Shown piece after piece: positions 2,412-19,719 of a stretch of DNA of 25,614 bases (positions are counted from its first letter, which is position 1; each line of letters starts with the position of its first letter). The notes beneath the pieces are model-generated. The model searched no databases. It was given only the letters and a program-made list of their open reading frames with translations, and was not told the DNA's origin. A program made the position numbers and the translations under genes. The DNA comes from a virus. The DNA lies in IMG/VR virus record IMGVR_UViG_3300044678_001989, positions 1 to 25,614 of that record. One strand, 5' to 3'.

Positions 2412-2520
2412 ACTCATATCGGGCTATTAAGCAAGTATAGATACTGCAGCCTATTAGACAATATTTGAGTGCTTGCATCTCATACTATGTCTTATGTTGG
2501 TTTGATATTCTATTTTCGGC

Positions 2521-2805
2521 TTACACGAAATGCTTAACTATTGCTACCGTCGCCAAAATTGACCAACCGATATTAAAGTATATAATGGTTGGGAGAGTTT
2601 TTATCGTAGAAGTAAAAATTAAAGCCAAACTAGACGCTAAAGCAAATACAAATAGCCACCACCATTGTTTGCCAAATAAAAGACCTGGAAAAATAATTGC
2701 TAACTTAGTTGAAAAAGCCCAAAACTCAATCGTATTAGTTTTATTCCAATATTTTTTTTCAAATAAATTTTTTGTTATTGTCCATATATCTTTATGATTT
2801 ATCAT
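2521..2805 (-). CDS. Small membrane protein, 94 aa
   Basis: The N-terminal ~30 residues are polar and charged. They are followed by hydrophobic segments at about 33-45, 47-67 and 71-91, separated by short loops (FGKQWWW, TSTIKT), giving two or three membrane helices. It overlaps the end of the halogenase gene by 14 bases, so it is translated with it. No family is recognised. Being coupled to the halogenase it could place a product or enzyme at the membrane, but this is speculation. A 120-base gap (2401-2520) follows, in which I see nothing convincing. Confidence 0.6.
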   Translation of the reverse strand: MINHKDIWTITKNLFEKKYWNKTNTIEFWAFSTKLAIIFPGLLFGKQWWWLFVFALASSLALIFTSTIKTLPTIIYFNIGWSILATVAIVKHFV

Positions 2806-4384
2806 TGTGAATATTTTCCTTTAACCACTGATACATTGTTGGCGAAGCATCTGCTTCTTCTTGCCAAAGTTTACGGAATATTTCCCATGCTTCCCATGTA
2901 TTTTTGCAATATTCATAATAGTCTATGCCATCCCAATGTTGCCATCTTTCTATTGTATTTTTTGTTACTGGGAAATAATTAAGGCCAGTAGCAATACAAT
3001 GAATCCCTCCAATACCATCATATCTTTGGCGATTAATGTGAACCTCTGCAAGGCCTCCAAATCCAGAAACCAGAGAAGGCTCCAATAGAGGAATTTGTGG
3101 CTGGAATGTTTTTTCTGTAATATCTCTCCAATACTGAGTATCTGTTCTATTTGATAGAGCATAATGCTGTGCTACAAATTCTTTAAATTCAAGGTATTGA
3201 AGCCTTGTTTTTGAGTTATAGGCATCTCTGTCCCATTGAGTTATTGTTTCTCGCTCTAAAGTTTTTACAAGTTTATCTAAAAATTCATGCACAGTAAATA
3301 AACCATTTGACTCTAAAGGCTCAATAAATCCTGCAGCAAATCCAATTGCTACAACATTTTTAACAAATGTGCGTTTATGAATTCCAACTTTAAATTTAAT
3401 ATATTTAAATTCTAGCGCTTCCACATCACGATCTGGATTATGAATAGTCATTTTGTCTGAACGCAGATGGTCTTTAAATTCTTTTAGGGCATCTTCTTTA
3501 GATATATGTTTATCGCTAAATACATAGCCAGTCCCAATTCTTTCCCATGATGGAATATTCCAGACCCAGCCATTATTGATAGCCGTACAGTTAGTATAAG
3601 GTTCCATCTCTTTTTCTTTATCGGTATAAGGAATACGAGTAGCCCATGCACTGTTATTTGGAAGCATATGACCAAAGTCATCCCACGGCTCTTCTAGTGC
3701 TCCTTCAAGAAGCATAGATTTAAATCCTGTACAGTCAATAAATAAATCTGCTGTAACATGTGTGCCATCGGTTAATACTAGCGACTCAATTCCTGACTCA
3801 TTTGTATTTACTGACTCTACTGTTTGAGGAATTACAGTTACTCCACGAGGAATGCAATAGTTATTCTTTAACCATAGGCCAAATTTAGTAGCATCAAAGT
3901 GATAGGCAACATCTTGCTTAAAGTTAAAGTTACCTAGTTTACCTGATTCATTCCAAGATAGTTTATTTTGTTCCGCTAAAGTAAGGGCGGGAAAGAATGT
4001 ACGAGCATAGTCTGCTACATCTAGATCTGAAAATTTGGCTTTCTTTACATACCAGTCATTAAGACCATTAACTGTTCCATCTAAAAATACTTTGCCAAAT
4101 GGATAATGAAATCCTCCTGCATCCTTCTTATAAAAGTCTGTAAACTTAATAGACATTTTATATACGGCATCTGTTGCTGGCATAAAGTCTTTCTCGTCAA
4201 TGCCGATCCAGTTTACCCATCCTGTAATTCCTCCAAGCGTTGATTCTCCAACGCCAATGATGGGGTAATCGGGGGATTCAATAACTACAATTTCTTTATC
4301 TGGAAATGCTCTAATCATAGACGCAGCCGACATCCAGCCTGCAGATCCACCGCCAACTACAACAATTTTATTTAAAGTAATCAA
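2792..4384 (-). CDS. Flavin-dependent tryptophan-halogenase-like enzyme, 530 aa
   Basis: Enzymes of this family use FADH2, O2 and halide to form HOCl or HOBr, which travels to a catalytic lysine and halogenates an aromatic substrate. The FAD-binding motif GGGSAG is at residues 11-16. The likely catalytic lysine is K80 (MSIK), matching K79 of PrnA. The WxWxIP motif that marks halogenases over monooxygenases is present as WVWNIP at 273-278. The segment F353-I-E-P-L-E358-S-N-G361 matches the FxPxSxG-type motif, with E358 at the place of the PrnA catalytic glutamate. Length is normal for the family. The start is TTG (4382-4384) behind the ribosome site GGTGGGGG. No flavin reductase is seen nearby, so the host would supply reduced flavin. 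A cyanophage halogenase (VirX1) that iodinates diverse substrates is the known precedent. Confidence 0.88.
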   Translation of the reverse strand: MITLNKIVVVGGGSAGWMSAASMIRAFPDKEIVVIESPDYPIIGVGESTLGGITGWVNWIGIDEKDFMPATDAVYKMSIKFTDFYKKDAGGFHYPFGKVFLDGTVNGLNDWYVKKAKFSDLDVADYARTFFPALTLAEQNKLSWNESGKLGNFNFKQDVAYHFDATKFGLWLKNNYCIPRGVTVIPQTVESVNTNESGIESLVLTDGTHVTADLFIDCTGFKSMLLEGALEEPWDDFGHMLPNNSAWATRIPYTDKEKEMEPYTNCTAINNGWVWNIPSWERIGTGYVFSDKHISKEDALKEFKDHLRSDKMTIHNPDRDVEALEFKYIKFKVGIHKRTFVKNVVAIGFAAGFIEPLESNGLFTVHEFLDKLVKTLERETITQWDRDAYNSKTRLQYLEFKEFVAQHYALSNRTDTQYWRDITEKTFQPQIPLLEPSLVSGFGGLAEVHINRQRYDGIGGIHCIATGLNYFPVTKNTIERWQHWDGIDYYEYCKNTWEAWEIFRKLWQEEADASPTMYQWLKENIHNDKS

Positions 4385-4412
4385 AATAATCCCCCACCTA
4401 GAATATCATTCA

Positions 4413-4421
4413 ATTGTACCA
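4413..4421 (-). promoter_or_regulatory. Extended -10 promoter for the minus-strand block
   Basis: On the minus strand TGGTACAAT (4421 to 4413) matches the TGGTATAAT element used on the plus strand with one change. It predicts a start near 4406 and a ~22-base leader holding the GGTGGGGG ribosome site. A second box, TGATATTCT (4408 to 4400), would start inside that site and is less likely. Confidence 0.5.
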
Positions 4422-4474
4422 TGCGGGTATTTAATATCTACTTTTTGATTAAACCATATTTTGCCTAATAATAA

Positions 4475-10725: not shown

Positions 10726-11547
10726 ATGACAAAGGACAAAAAAATTAACAAAAAATATTATTTCTTAACTGGCATGCCAAGAAGTGGAAATACACTTCTT
10801 TCTGCAATATTAAATCAAAACCCGAAATTTTATAGCAGTCCATTAAGTCCGTTGTCAGAGCAACTATTTCAAATTGAATCAAGTTTGAGTTCAGAAACTG
10901 GATTAAGAAATCAGGAAAATTCAAAAAGAACAGTAAACACCCTTAATAAATATACTGATATTTTTTATTCTGATGTAAACAAAGAAATAATTTTTGATAG
11001 GCAAAAAAATTGGACAACCCCTAAAAATATGGAGTTAATAACCAAATACATAAATCCAAAACCAAAAATAATATTTACAGTAAGAGATTATTTAGAGGTT
11101 ATTGCCTCTACAGCAATTTTAAGCGGTGACATTATTGAAAAAGAAATAGACTCCAGAAACCTATACATATCGTATGGGATGAATAAATATGACAAGATTG
11201 CAGAATACTTAAGTGCAATGAATATGGCAATGGACATGACCATGCTATCTTTAAGAACTGCACTATCAAAAGAATATAGGGGTTTTGTTTATTTTGTAGA
11301 ATATAATGATCTTGTAAACAATACAAAAGAAACAGTAGATAAGATATACAACTTTTTAGAAGAAGAAGAGTTTTCTCACGATTTCAACAATATTCAAAAA
11401 ATTGAAACTGACAATGAACATGTGTTAGGTCAAAATCCAATAACGCATATTGTGTACCCACAAATAACTCCTTCAAAAACTAAGCCAGAAGATATTTTTA
11501 GCGAATACATACTAAAAAAATATGCTAATATGAATATTTGGAGATAA
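10726..11547 (+). CDS. PAPS-dependent sulfotransferase family protein, 273 aa
   Basis: Such enzymes move a sulfate group from PAPS to a hydroxyl or amine on a sugar, peptide or small molecule. The 5'-phosphosulfate loop is clear: TGMPRSGNTLL at residues 15-25. The 3'-phosphate site follows as TVRDYLEVIAS at about 118-128, with R120 and S128 in the expected roles. Spacing between the two motifs and total length suit the P-loop sulfotransferase fold. The substrate is unknown. Standing among fibre genes, it could modify host surface glycans or a virion component. Its codon use is more AT-rich than that of the fibre genes. It ends in a bidirectional terminator and has a weak promoter of its own. 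Confidence 0.8.
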   Translation: MTKDKKINKKYYFLTGMPRSGNTLLSAILNQNPKFYSSPLSPLSEQLFQIESSLSSETGLRNQENSKRTVNTLNKYTDIFYSDVNKEIIFDRQKNWTTPKNMELITKYINPKPKIIFTVRDYLEVIASTAILSGDIIEKEIDSRNLYISYGMNKYDKIAEYLSAMNMAMDMTMLSLRTALSKEYRGFVYFVEYNDLVNNTKETVDKIYNFLEEEEFSHDFNNIQKIETDNEHVLGQNPITHIVYPQITPSKTKPEDIFSEYILKKYANMNIWR

Positions 11548-17685: not shown

Positions 17686-19719
17686 ATGTCAGAAACCGTA
17701 TTCTCTTTTCGTCTTTCAGATGAATTTGTAAATAAATATAATAACACTCCATCCCCATTTGGATTCTCAGATGCAGGGTCTAACTCATTAGGAGAAATTA
17801 CATTTATTCGTACATATTCTCGTGTTAAGGAAGATGGAACTAAGGAACGCTGGCATGAAGTTTGCCGTCGTGTAATTGAGGGTATGTATTCAGTACAGAA
17901 GAACCATGCCAAAGACAATCGCCTACCATGGAACGACAACAAGGCACAGAAGTCTGCTCAAGAAGCATTCCAAAGAATGTTTGAATTAAAGTGGACTCCA
18001 CCAGGTCGTGGTCTCTGGGCATTTGGTACTCCTATGACTATGGAAAAGCGCAACTCTGCTTCCCTTCAAAACTGTGCAATGGTATCAACTCGTGACCTTG
18101 ATCGCAATGACCCAGGAGCCCTATTTGCATGGGTAATGGATGCATTGATGCTAGGTATTGGTGTAGGGTTTGATACTCTTGGACAAGACAAGCAGATGTC
18201 TATTTATGCCCCTACAGAGCCAGCCTCAGTATACGAAATCCCAGATACTCGTGAAGGTTGGGTAGAATCTGTTCGTCTTTTGATTAATTCATTTTTACGT
18301 CAGAATCAACCAGTTCAAGAGTTTACCTATGACCTTATCCGTCCTCTAGGAGCCCCTATTAAGGGCTTTGGGGGCGTTGCAAGCGGTCCACAACCACTTA
18401 TTGATCTCCATACACGTATTCGTAATGTAATTGGTTCTAGAGCAGGAGAAGCCTTAGATAGCCGTGCCATCGTAGATCTTGTTAATCTCATTGGTACATG
18501 CGTTGTTTCTGGAAATGTTCGTCGTTCTGCTACTCTTGCTTTGGGTAAACCAGAAGATGAAGGTTTTATTAATCTTAAGAATCCAGAAGTATTCCCAGAA
18601 AGAAATTCATACGATCCAGAAAAACCAGGCTGGGCATGGATGAGTAATAACTCAATCGCTGCTGAAGTTGGAACAAAGTATGAAGACTATGTAGATTTAA
18701 TTGCTGACAATGGAGAGCCAGGATTTATCTGGCTTGATGTTGCTCGTGATTATGGCCGTCTTGCAGATGCTCCTGATTACAAGGACACTCGCATTATGGG
18801 CTTCAATCCTTGTGCGGAGCAGCCATTGGAGTCGTACGAACTTTGTACTCTTGTAGAAGTTCATCTAAACCGACATGAATCCAAGGAGGACTTCCTCAAG
18901 ACATTGAAGTTTGCTTATCTTTATGGAAAGACTGTAACTCTTATGCCAACACATTGGCAACAGACAAATGGTATTATGCAGCGTAATCGTCGTATTGGTA
19001 CATCTCTTACAGGTATTGCTGCATTTGCTGACCAACATGGTCTTCCAGTTATTCGTGAGTGGATGGACGAAGGATATAACACAATTCGTAAATACGATCA
19101 TTCATATTCTGAGTGGCTATGTGTTCGTGAATCAGTTCGTGTAACAACGGTTAAGCCATCAGGATCTGTTTCACTTCTCTCTGGTGCTACCCCTGGAGTT
19201 CACTGGGGACCTGGAGGAGAGTTTTATCTTCGTGCTATTAGATTTGGAAACACAGATCCTATGATGCATTTATTTAAAGCAGCGGGGTATAAAATTGAAG
19301 ATGACCTAGTATCAGCAAATACCTCAGTAGTATATTTCCCAGTAGCATCAGGACATAAGCGTTCTGAAAAGCAGGTTAGCCTATTTGAAAAGATTGGTTT
19401 GGCAGCAACTGCTCAGAAGTACTGGTCAGATAACGGTGTTTCTGTAACTCTATCATTTAATAAGGAAGAAGAGAAGAAGTTTATTGCTCCTGCACTAAAT
19501 ATGTATGAGGGGCAACTAAAGGCTGTATCTTTCTTGCCAATGGGTGATAAGGTTTATCCTCAGCAACCGTATACAGAAATTACAAGAGAACAATACAATT
19601 CTTACGTTGGCAAAATTGGCAAAATTGATTGGTCTGCTATTTATGATGGCAAGGATAATCTTGATGCTGAGTCTGAAAAATACTGTTCAACAGATGCATG
19701 TGAGATTAAATTATATTAG
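17686..19719 (+). CDS. nrdJ: Class II (B12-dependent) ribonucleotide reductase, monomeric type, 677 aa
   Basis: It converts ribonucleotides to deoxyribonucleotides using adenosylcobalamin as the radical source, without oxygen or a small subunit. The finger-loop motif NPCAEQPLESYELC at 374-387 gives the thiyl-radical cysteine C376, the acid E378 and one redox cysteine C387. C130 (SLQNCAMVS) is its partner. The C-terminal shuttle pair is C667 and C672 (CSTDACEIKLY), the same CxxxxC spacing as C731/C736 of the Lactobacillus leichmannii enzyme. PSGSVSLLSG is the phosphate-binding region. This close fit points to the monomeric triphosphate reductase type. Placement between structural genes, with its own terminator and promoter, is unusual for a replication gene. 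The host must supply or take up B12. Confidence 0.93.
   Translation: MSETVFSFRLSDEFVNKYNNTPSPFGFSDAGSNSLGEITFIRTYSRVKEDGTKERWHEVCRRVIEGMYSVQKNHAKDNRLPWNDNKAQKSAQEAFQRMFELKWTPPGRGLWAFGTPMTMEKRNSASLQNCAMVSTRDLDRNDPGALFAWVMDALMLGIGVGFDTLGQDKQMSIYAPTEPASVYEIPDTREGWVESVRLLINSFLRQNQPVQEFTYDLIRPLGAPIKGFGGVASGPQPLIDLHTRIRNVIGSRAGEALDSRAIVDLVNLIGTCVVSGNVRRSATLALGKPEDEGFINLKNPEVFPERNSYDPEKPGWAWMSNNSIAAEVGTKYEDYVDLIADNGEPGFIWLDVARDYGRLADAPDYKDTRIMGFNPCAEQPLESYELCTLVEVHLNRHESKEDFLKTLKFAYLYGKTVTLMPTHWQQTNGIMQRNRRIGTSLTGIAAFADQHGLPVIREWMDEGYNTIRKYDHSYSEWLCVRESVRVTTVKPSGSVSLLSGATPGVHWGPGGEFYLRAIRFGNTDPMMHLFKAAGYKIEDDLVSANTSVVYFPVASGHKRSEKQVSLFEKIGLAATAQKYWSDNGVSVTLSFNKEEEKKFIAPALNMYEGQLKAVSFLPMGDKVYPQQPYTEITREQYNSYVGKIGKIDWSAIYDGKDNLDAESEKYCSTDACEIKLY

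Follow-up and report, generated by a model that had tools for sequence, protein, structure and literature searches.

A probably active VirX1-type halogenase, carried with a membrane protein as mobile cargo of a phage most likely infecting freshwater actinobacteria

Introduction

The targets of viral halogenases in infected cells are a general question, and the gene described here bears on it. The window, that is, the whole 25,614-nt stretch of DNA that was analysed (IMG/VR record IMGVR_UViG_3300044678_001989, positions 1 to 25,614), carries a halogenase gene, which raises the question of whether the enzyme is active, which phage carries it and what it modifies. Our reading, held at a probability of roughly 0.7, is that it is a probably active VirX1-type halogenase of a phage most likely infecting freshwater actinobacteria, carried with a membrane protein as accessory cargo that moves between lineages. 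The enzyme type itself is already known from ocean viruses; the new part is the setting. Neither this halogenase subclade nor the gene pair appeared in the literature searched, the coverage of which was partial, and the host group is probably new.

Halogenase gene

The gene lies at 2792..4384 on the minus strand and encodes 530 aa in an unbroken reading frame, starting at a TTG that is preceded by the purine-rich stretch AGGTGGGGG; the position of the start codon is common to the halogenases of relatives, which have ATG, GTG or TTG there. The product matched Pfam Trp_halogenase PF04820 (E 2.1e-103, 347 bits against a curated cut-off of 21) and PHROG 2928 'tryptophan halogenase' (E 5e-148), and its best PDB match by sequence was VirX1 (E 7e-100). 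Relatives, 43–91% identical, were found on 80 IMG/VR contigs. Comparison with 13 relatives gave a dN/dS of 0.06–0.15, indicating strong purifying selection, so the reading frame is not a chance one and is a real gene. A scan of the genome contigs for bacterial origin gave one match only, at 34%, and promoter and terminator scans gave matches not above chance level.

Catalytic residues and the N360 position

All flavin-dependent halogenase motifs are present and aligned with those of RebH and PyrH: the FAD-binding GxGxxG motif as GGGSAG (residues 11–16, with G11, G13 and G16; 4337..4354, minus strand), the catalytic lysine, assigned by alignment, as K76 (4157..4159, minus strand; RebH K79, PyrH K75), the WxWxIP motif as WVWNIP (residues 273–278, with W273, W275 and P278; 3551..3568, minus strand), and the catalytic glutamate as E358 (RebH E357) within EPLESNG (residues 355–361; 3302..3322, minus strand), which also contains N360. 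Since these motifs are all intact, halogenase activity is likely, and the earlier note's description of the product as a flavin-dependent halogenase of viral type, its motifs intact, is borne out by them and by the grouping with VirX1 described below. Its choice of K80 as the catalytic lysine is corrected, because the residue that aligns with RebH K79 and PyrH K75 is K76, found without exception in 110/110 rows; K80 aligns with RebH K83 in a variable column of the same 110-row alignment.

N360 had been described as an asparagine standing where PrnA has the threonine next to the catalytic glutamate. The column does correspond to RebH T359 and holds Thr in both RebH and PrnA, but the residue comes two positions after E358, not directly beside it. 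Nor is it an oddity of this enzyme: the phage clade described below has Asn in 57/75 members, Thr in 17/75 and Ser in 1/75, while Thr is found in all 10 remaining reference rows, nine of them from bacteria or plasmids and one from a gut phage (10/10; Asn 0/10). N360 is thus the usual residue in a large subclade of the phage enzymes. In PrnA, backbone amides at the position matching N360 presumably hold the halide, so an effect of this residue on halide choice is possible and need not be large. The Asn-for-Thr change lends itself to testing halide choice by a simple mutation.

Phylogeny and structure prediction

In a maximum-likelihood tree of 110 rows, calculated with a quick method (no bootstrap, several long branches, the near-identical syn9 protein standing in for VirX1), the window halogenase fell within a 75-row all-phage clade containing VirX1 (SH-aLRT 100), separate from the bacterial RebH, PyrH, Th-Hal-like and LooH enzymes. 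The protein could instead have been a non-halogenating flavin monooxygenase, such as a hydroxylase or a protein-tryptophan maturase like QhpG or LodB, to which it has weak NCBIfam similarity (45 and 40 bits, respectively). These scores are far below the model cut-offs of 240 and 400, the protein belongs to the VirX1 clade, and it retains K76, WxWxIP and EPLES, all of which makes this very improbable. As far as can be told from a tree that contained no non-halogenating monooxygenases, the placement among such enzymes that the earlier note had allowed for did not occur.

The structural comparison with known halogenases that had been proposed was run using an AlphaFold2 model (36 sequences, with rows from the phage collection left out of the input alignment; pLDDT 91.9, pTM 0.89). 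VirX1 was the closest modelled fold by Foldseek, its chains occupying ranks 1–6 (TM 0.92–0.94, rmsd 1.7–1.9 Å). By VIA-align Z score, VirX1 ranked fourth (46.9) among bacterial tryptophan halogenases, behind SttH (49.2) and PrnA, although its rmsd (1.6 Å) was the smallest among the top rows. By clade, sequence and modelled fold, the window enzyme is a VirX1-type halogenase that is probably active.

Accessory island and its edges

The breaks and resumptions of homology in relatives without the halogenase delimit an accessory island of ~1.94 kb with sharp boundaries (about 2523..4463, no strand assigned), consisting of the halogenase and a membrane-protein gene, a setting that the earlier note had missed together with the partner gene itself. 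The left edge fell at 2522/2523 in most halogenase-less relatives compared, and at the right edge homology resumed at 4463–4467 in four relatives and at 4430–4434 in two; in one contig (L216), the flanks lie only some 8 nt apart. Among 49 distinct contigs spanning the site, 44 are without any halogenase (44/49, counted manually from the locus table). The island is located at the junction of a minus-strand operon and a plus-strand tail-fibre operon, and in two contigs (L015, L016) the gene pair is found at another junction, giving a second insertion point. Close relatives among these phages differ in whether they have the island, a natural experiment by which its role can be approached through direct comparison.

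A conserved intergenic element, GGTTTGRTATTCTATTTTCGGCTT (24 nt; 2499..2522, plus strand), marks the left edge and occurs as a single exact copy in the window, with 0 expected by chance. A slightly shorter form was found in 100 sequences with at most 3 substitutions, some of them from the same contig. In L143 (1761 and 2636) and L141 (1597 and 2695), a pair of copies flanks other cargo in the same slot, which looks as though the element comes with, or is doubled by, each insert.

Transfer between phage lineages

Identities to the window were compared for the portal and the halogenase. In five contigs (L001, L002, L007, L009 and L025) the portal is 52–53% but the halogenase 85–91% identical, with values of 52% and about 90% for L001 and L002, whereas in three others (L010, L014 and L015) the portal is 90–91% but the halogenase 79–84% identical. 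Analysis of the first 9,500 window bases by blastn showed that L001 and L002 share only 2528–4383 with the window, a stretch corresponding to the island. Because the portal and halogenase identities disagree, and because the blastn sharing is confined to the island, the halogenase evidently moves horizontally between phage lineages.

Membrane-protein partner

The second island gene (2521..2805, minus strand) encodes a hydrophobic, predicted membrane protein of 94 aa and overlaps the halogenase stop by 14 nt. Searches with this protein against Pfam, PHROG and NCBIfam assigned it to no family, the phage collection contained no relative of it, and neither it nor the halogenase was matched by PADLOC as a defence gene. 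A search with the 94-aa protein alone recovered 34 loci, 29 of which have a halogenase-family gene at most 4 kb away, some of these halogenases being only 22–30% identical to that of the window; two control neighbours from the same region were halogenase-linked in 4/80 and 5/44 loci, and all these counts are indicative, since many loci are fragments, some contigs are near-identical and not all are independent. In the other five loci (L113–L116 and L125, one closely similar set), carbamoyltransferase-like or other genes replace the halogenase, so the association, although strong, is not an exclusive one. The pairing of a halogenase with a membrane protein was not found reported in the literature, as far as the partial coverage extended, and the linked protein provides a further handle on the biological role of the halogenase.

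Other genes near halogenases and in the window

2OG-Fe(II) oxygenases were considered as functional partners and rejected, since, although common beside halogenases in cyanophages and several other contigs, they are spread over whole cyanophage genomes, and a PF13640 search found none in five large contigs from the same halogenase subclade as the window. A 2OG-like gene does adjoin the halogenase in L005. An apparent halogenase-2OG fusion in L035 and L036 (656–658 aa) was also rejected, Pfam giving Trp_halogenase alone. A phrog_7084 protein (distantly DUF6065-like) is found near phage halogenases in 29 loci (for example, L011:8651-9376), the window not being one of them; a partner function was not adopted for it, as its model was without a PDB match at E ≤ 0.001 and dUTPase-like matches were weak (E about 3e-3, TM 0.3–0.5).

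Several contigs (L040, of 345 kb, L076, L029, L031, L037 and L038) contain 3 to 6 halogenase-family genes or matches, mostly clustered; they also have 2OG-Fe(II) oxygenases, and some have a carbamoyltransferase and a GT9-like glycosyltransferase. Within the window, a sulfotransferase-like gene (10726-11547; PF13469, phrog_27463) is situated amid tail-fibre genes, an adenosylcobalamin-dependent (class II) ribonucleotide reductase gene (17686-19719; 338 bits, just below the TIGR02505 cut-off) in the structural region, and a tandem pair of DUF6171 genes with CxxC-type cysteine motifs at 160-357 and 398-598.

Phage and host

Comparison of the window with 50,697 phage records by megablast gave no match. 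The window portal is nearest to those of Streptomyces phages, at about 45–47%. WhiB, a marker of actinophages (PMC10202952, PMC6802176), is present in 6/8 contigs belonging to the same halogenase subclade as the window, among them L014 and L015, which have a portal identity of 90–91% to the window; within the 25.6-kb window, itself a fragment, neither WhiB nor another host marker was seen. Because of WhiB in these sister contigs, the phage is most likely an actinophage rather than a cyanophage. The cyanophage connection drawn in the earlier note stands for the enzyme, which is related to cyanophage halogenases (among named phage records, its close relatives come almost entirely from marine cyanophages), but probably not for the phage, given the WhiB genes of the sister contigs and the portal. 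The freshwater setting would follow from the kind of phage and the cited literature, as opposed to sample records. No halogenases were reported in actinophages in the literature searched, with partial coverage. The case places a large, actively exchanged group of these halogenases in phages whose hosts are probably freshwater actinobacteria.

Flavin reductase PF01613 was found in 0/11 related phage records, several of which are fragments, and because of this FADH2 is likely supplied by the host.

Proposed mechanism and substrate

By the established chemistry of the family, which we extend to this enzyme from its conserved residues, a host reductase would supply FADH2 to the halogenase, where FADH2, O2 and halide would yield hypohalous acid; this would travel to K76, which together with E358 would halogenate an electron-rich aromatic ring in an open pocket. 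The gene is accessory cargo, exchanged between phage lineages within the ~1.94-kb island together with the overlapping membrane-protein gene.

The Pfam and PHROG family names imply a tryptophan halogenase acting on free L-Trp. Binding of free tryptophan has been tied experimentally to the Trp4 motif (YYxxF... or YYHG...) (PMC8269204), and the aligned C-terminal region of the window halogenase has no YY motif. In the Trp2 histidine column, which precedes a conserved Phe, the window enzyme has Tyr94, as do all clade rows (Tyr in 75/75), in place of the His of the reference rows (10/10); its His93 is one residue before that column. Since the Trp4 motif is absent and the Trp2 column holds Tyr, free tryptophan appears unlikely as the natural substrate, and the activity that the family names suggest is highly unlikely here. 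The natural substrate is probably some other aromatic group, perhaps one carried by a molecule associated with membrane or virion.

VirX1 is reported to be a trimer with an open active site, to prefer iodide over bromide over chloride, and to accept many small aromatics (PMC8407142). This breadth and halide preference suit an enzyme acting in infection on a small aromatic metabolite from the host or its surroundings (a signal, pigment, quinone or antibiotic), with the membrane protein moving the product or anchoring the enzyme, as do the overlap of the short membrane-protein gene with the halogenase and its linkage also to divergent halogenases. Against it, the island is without metabolite biosynthesis genes and the membrane protein matches no transporter family, which leaves a metabolite target plausible at somewhat less than even odds.

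Another possible target, in keeping with the open active site of VirX1, is the aromatic side chains of virion proteins, among them the collagen-like or Gly-rich fibre proteins encoded nearby, whose modification could alter adsorption or stability. MibH, which halogenates peptide-embedded tryptophan, has the same fold as the window model, orthologs adjoin genes of tail-fibre, collagen-like, Gly-rich or LamG-like type across a number of unrelated gene arrangements, and several cyanophage relatives adjoin tail-fibre or structural genes. The position beside fibre genes is nevertheless weak evidence, because in 44/49 related contigs these flanking genes occur with no halogenase between them and the slot may simply tolerate insertion; moreover, the island is on the strand opposite to the fibre genes, and the orthologs of L074–L080 and cyanophage S-B64 are away from recognised fibre genes. 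We consider virion proteins rather unlikely as the target. More doubtful still is a wider proposal that the pair is an undescribed mobile two-gene system of freshwater actinophages, in which the membrane protein would localise the halogenase to, or couple it with, an aromatic substrate of the envelope or virion and so confer a competitive trait such as altered adsorption or rival exclusion, the Thr-to-Asn change both marking the subclade and shifting halide preference.

Comparison with known halogenases

The bacterial tryptophan 7-/5-halogenases RebH, PrnA and PyrH share the fold, GxGxxG, the lysine, WxWxIP and EPLESxG with the window enzyme, to which they are about 27–30% identical; they differ in having Thr at the N360 position and in the Trp2 His and Trp4 Tyr that hold free tryptophan, both missing from the window enzyme. 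The nearest record in the phage collection by sequence is the halogenase of Synechococcus phage Sf-CH11 (50.6% identical), which likewise has ESNG; Sf-CH11 is a cyanophage, and 2OG-Fe(II) oxygenases adjoin its halogenase, a difference from the five large subclade contigs searched with PF13640, although L005 has a 2OG-like gene in that place. VirX1 (cyanophage Syn10, PDB 6QGM) shares with the window enzyme its clade, fold, and catalytic Lys and Glu, and like it has no Trp4 motif and a Tyr in the Trp2 column. The two are about 36–37% identical, and VirX1 has Thr at the N360 position. In the syn9 equivalent of VirX1, the gene that comes next is a phrog_7084 gene and not a membrane-protein gene, and VirX1 is from a T4-like cyanophage, whereas the window enzyme is most likely from an actinophage.
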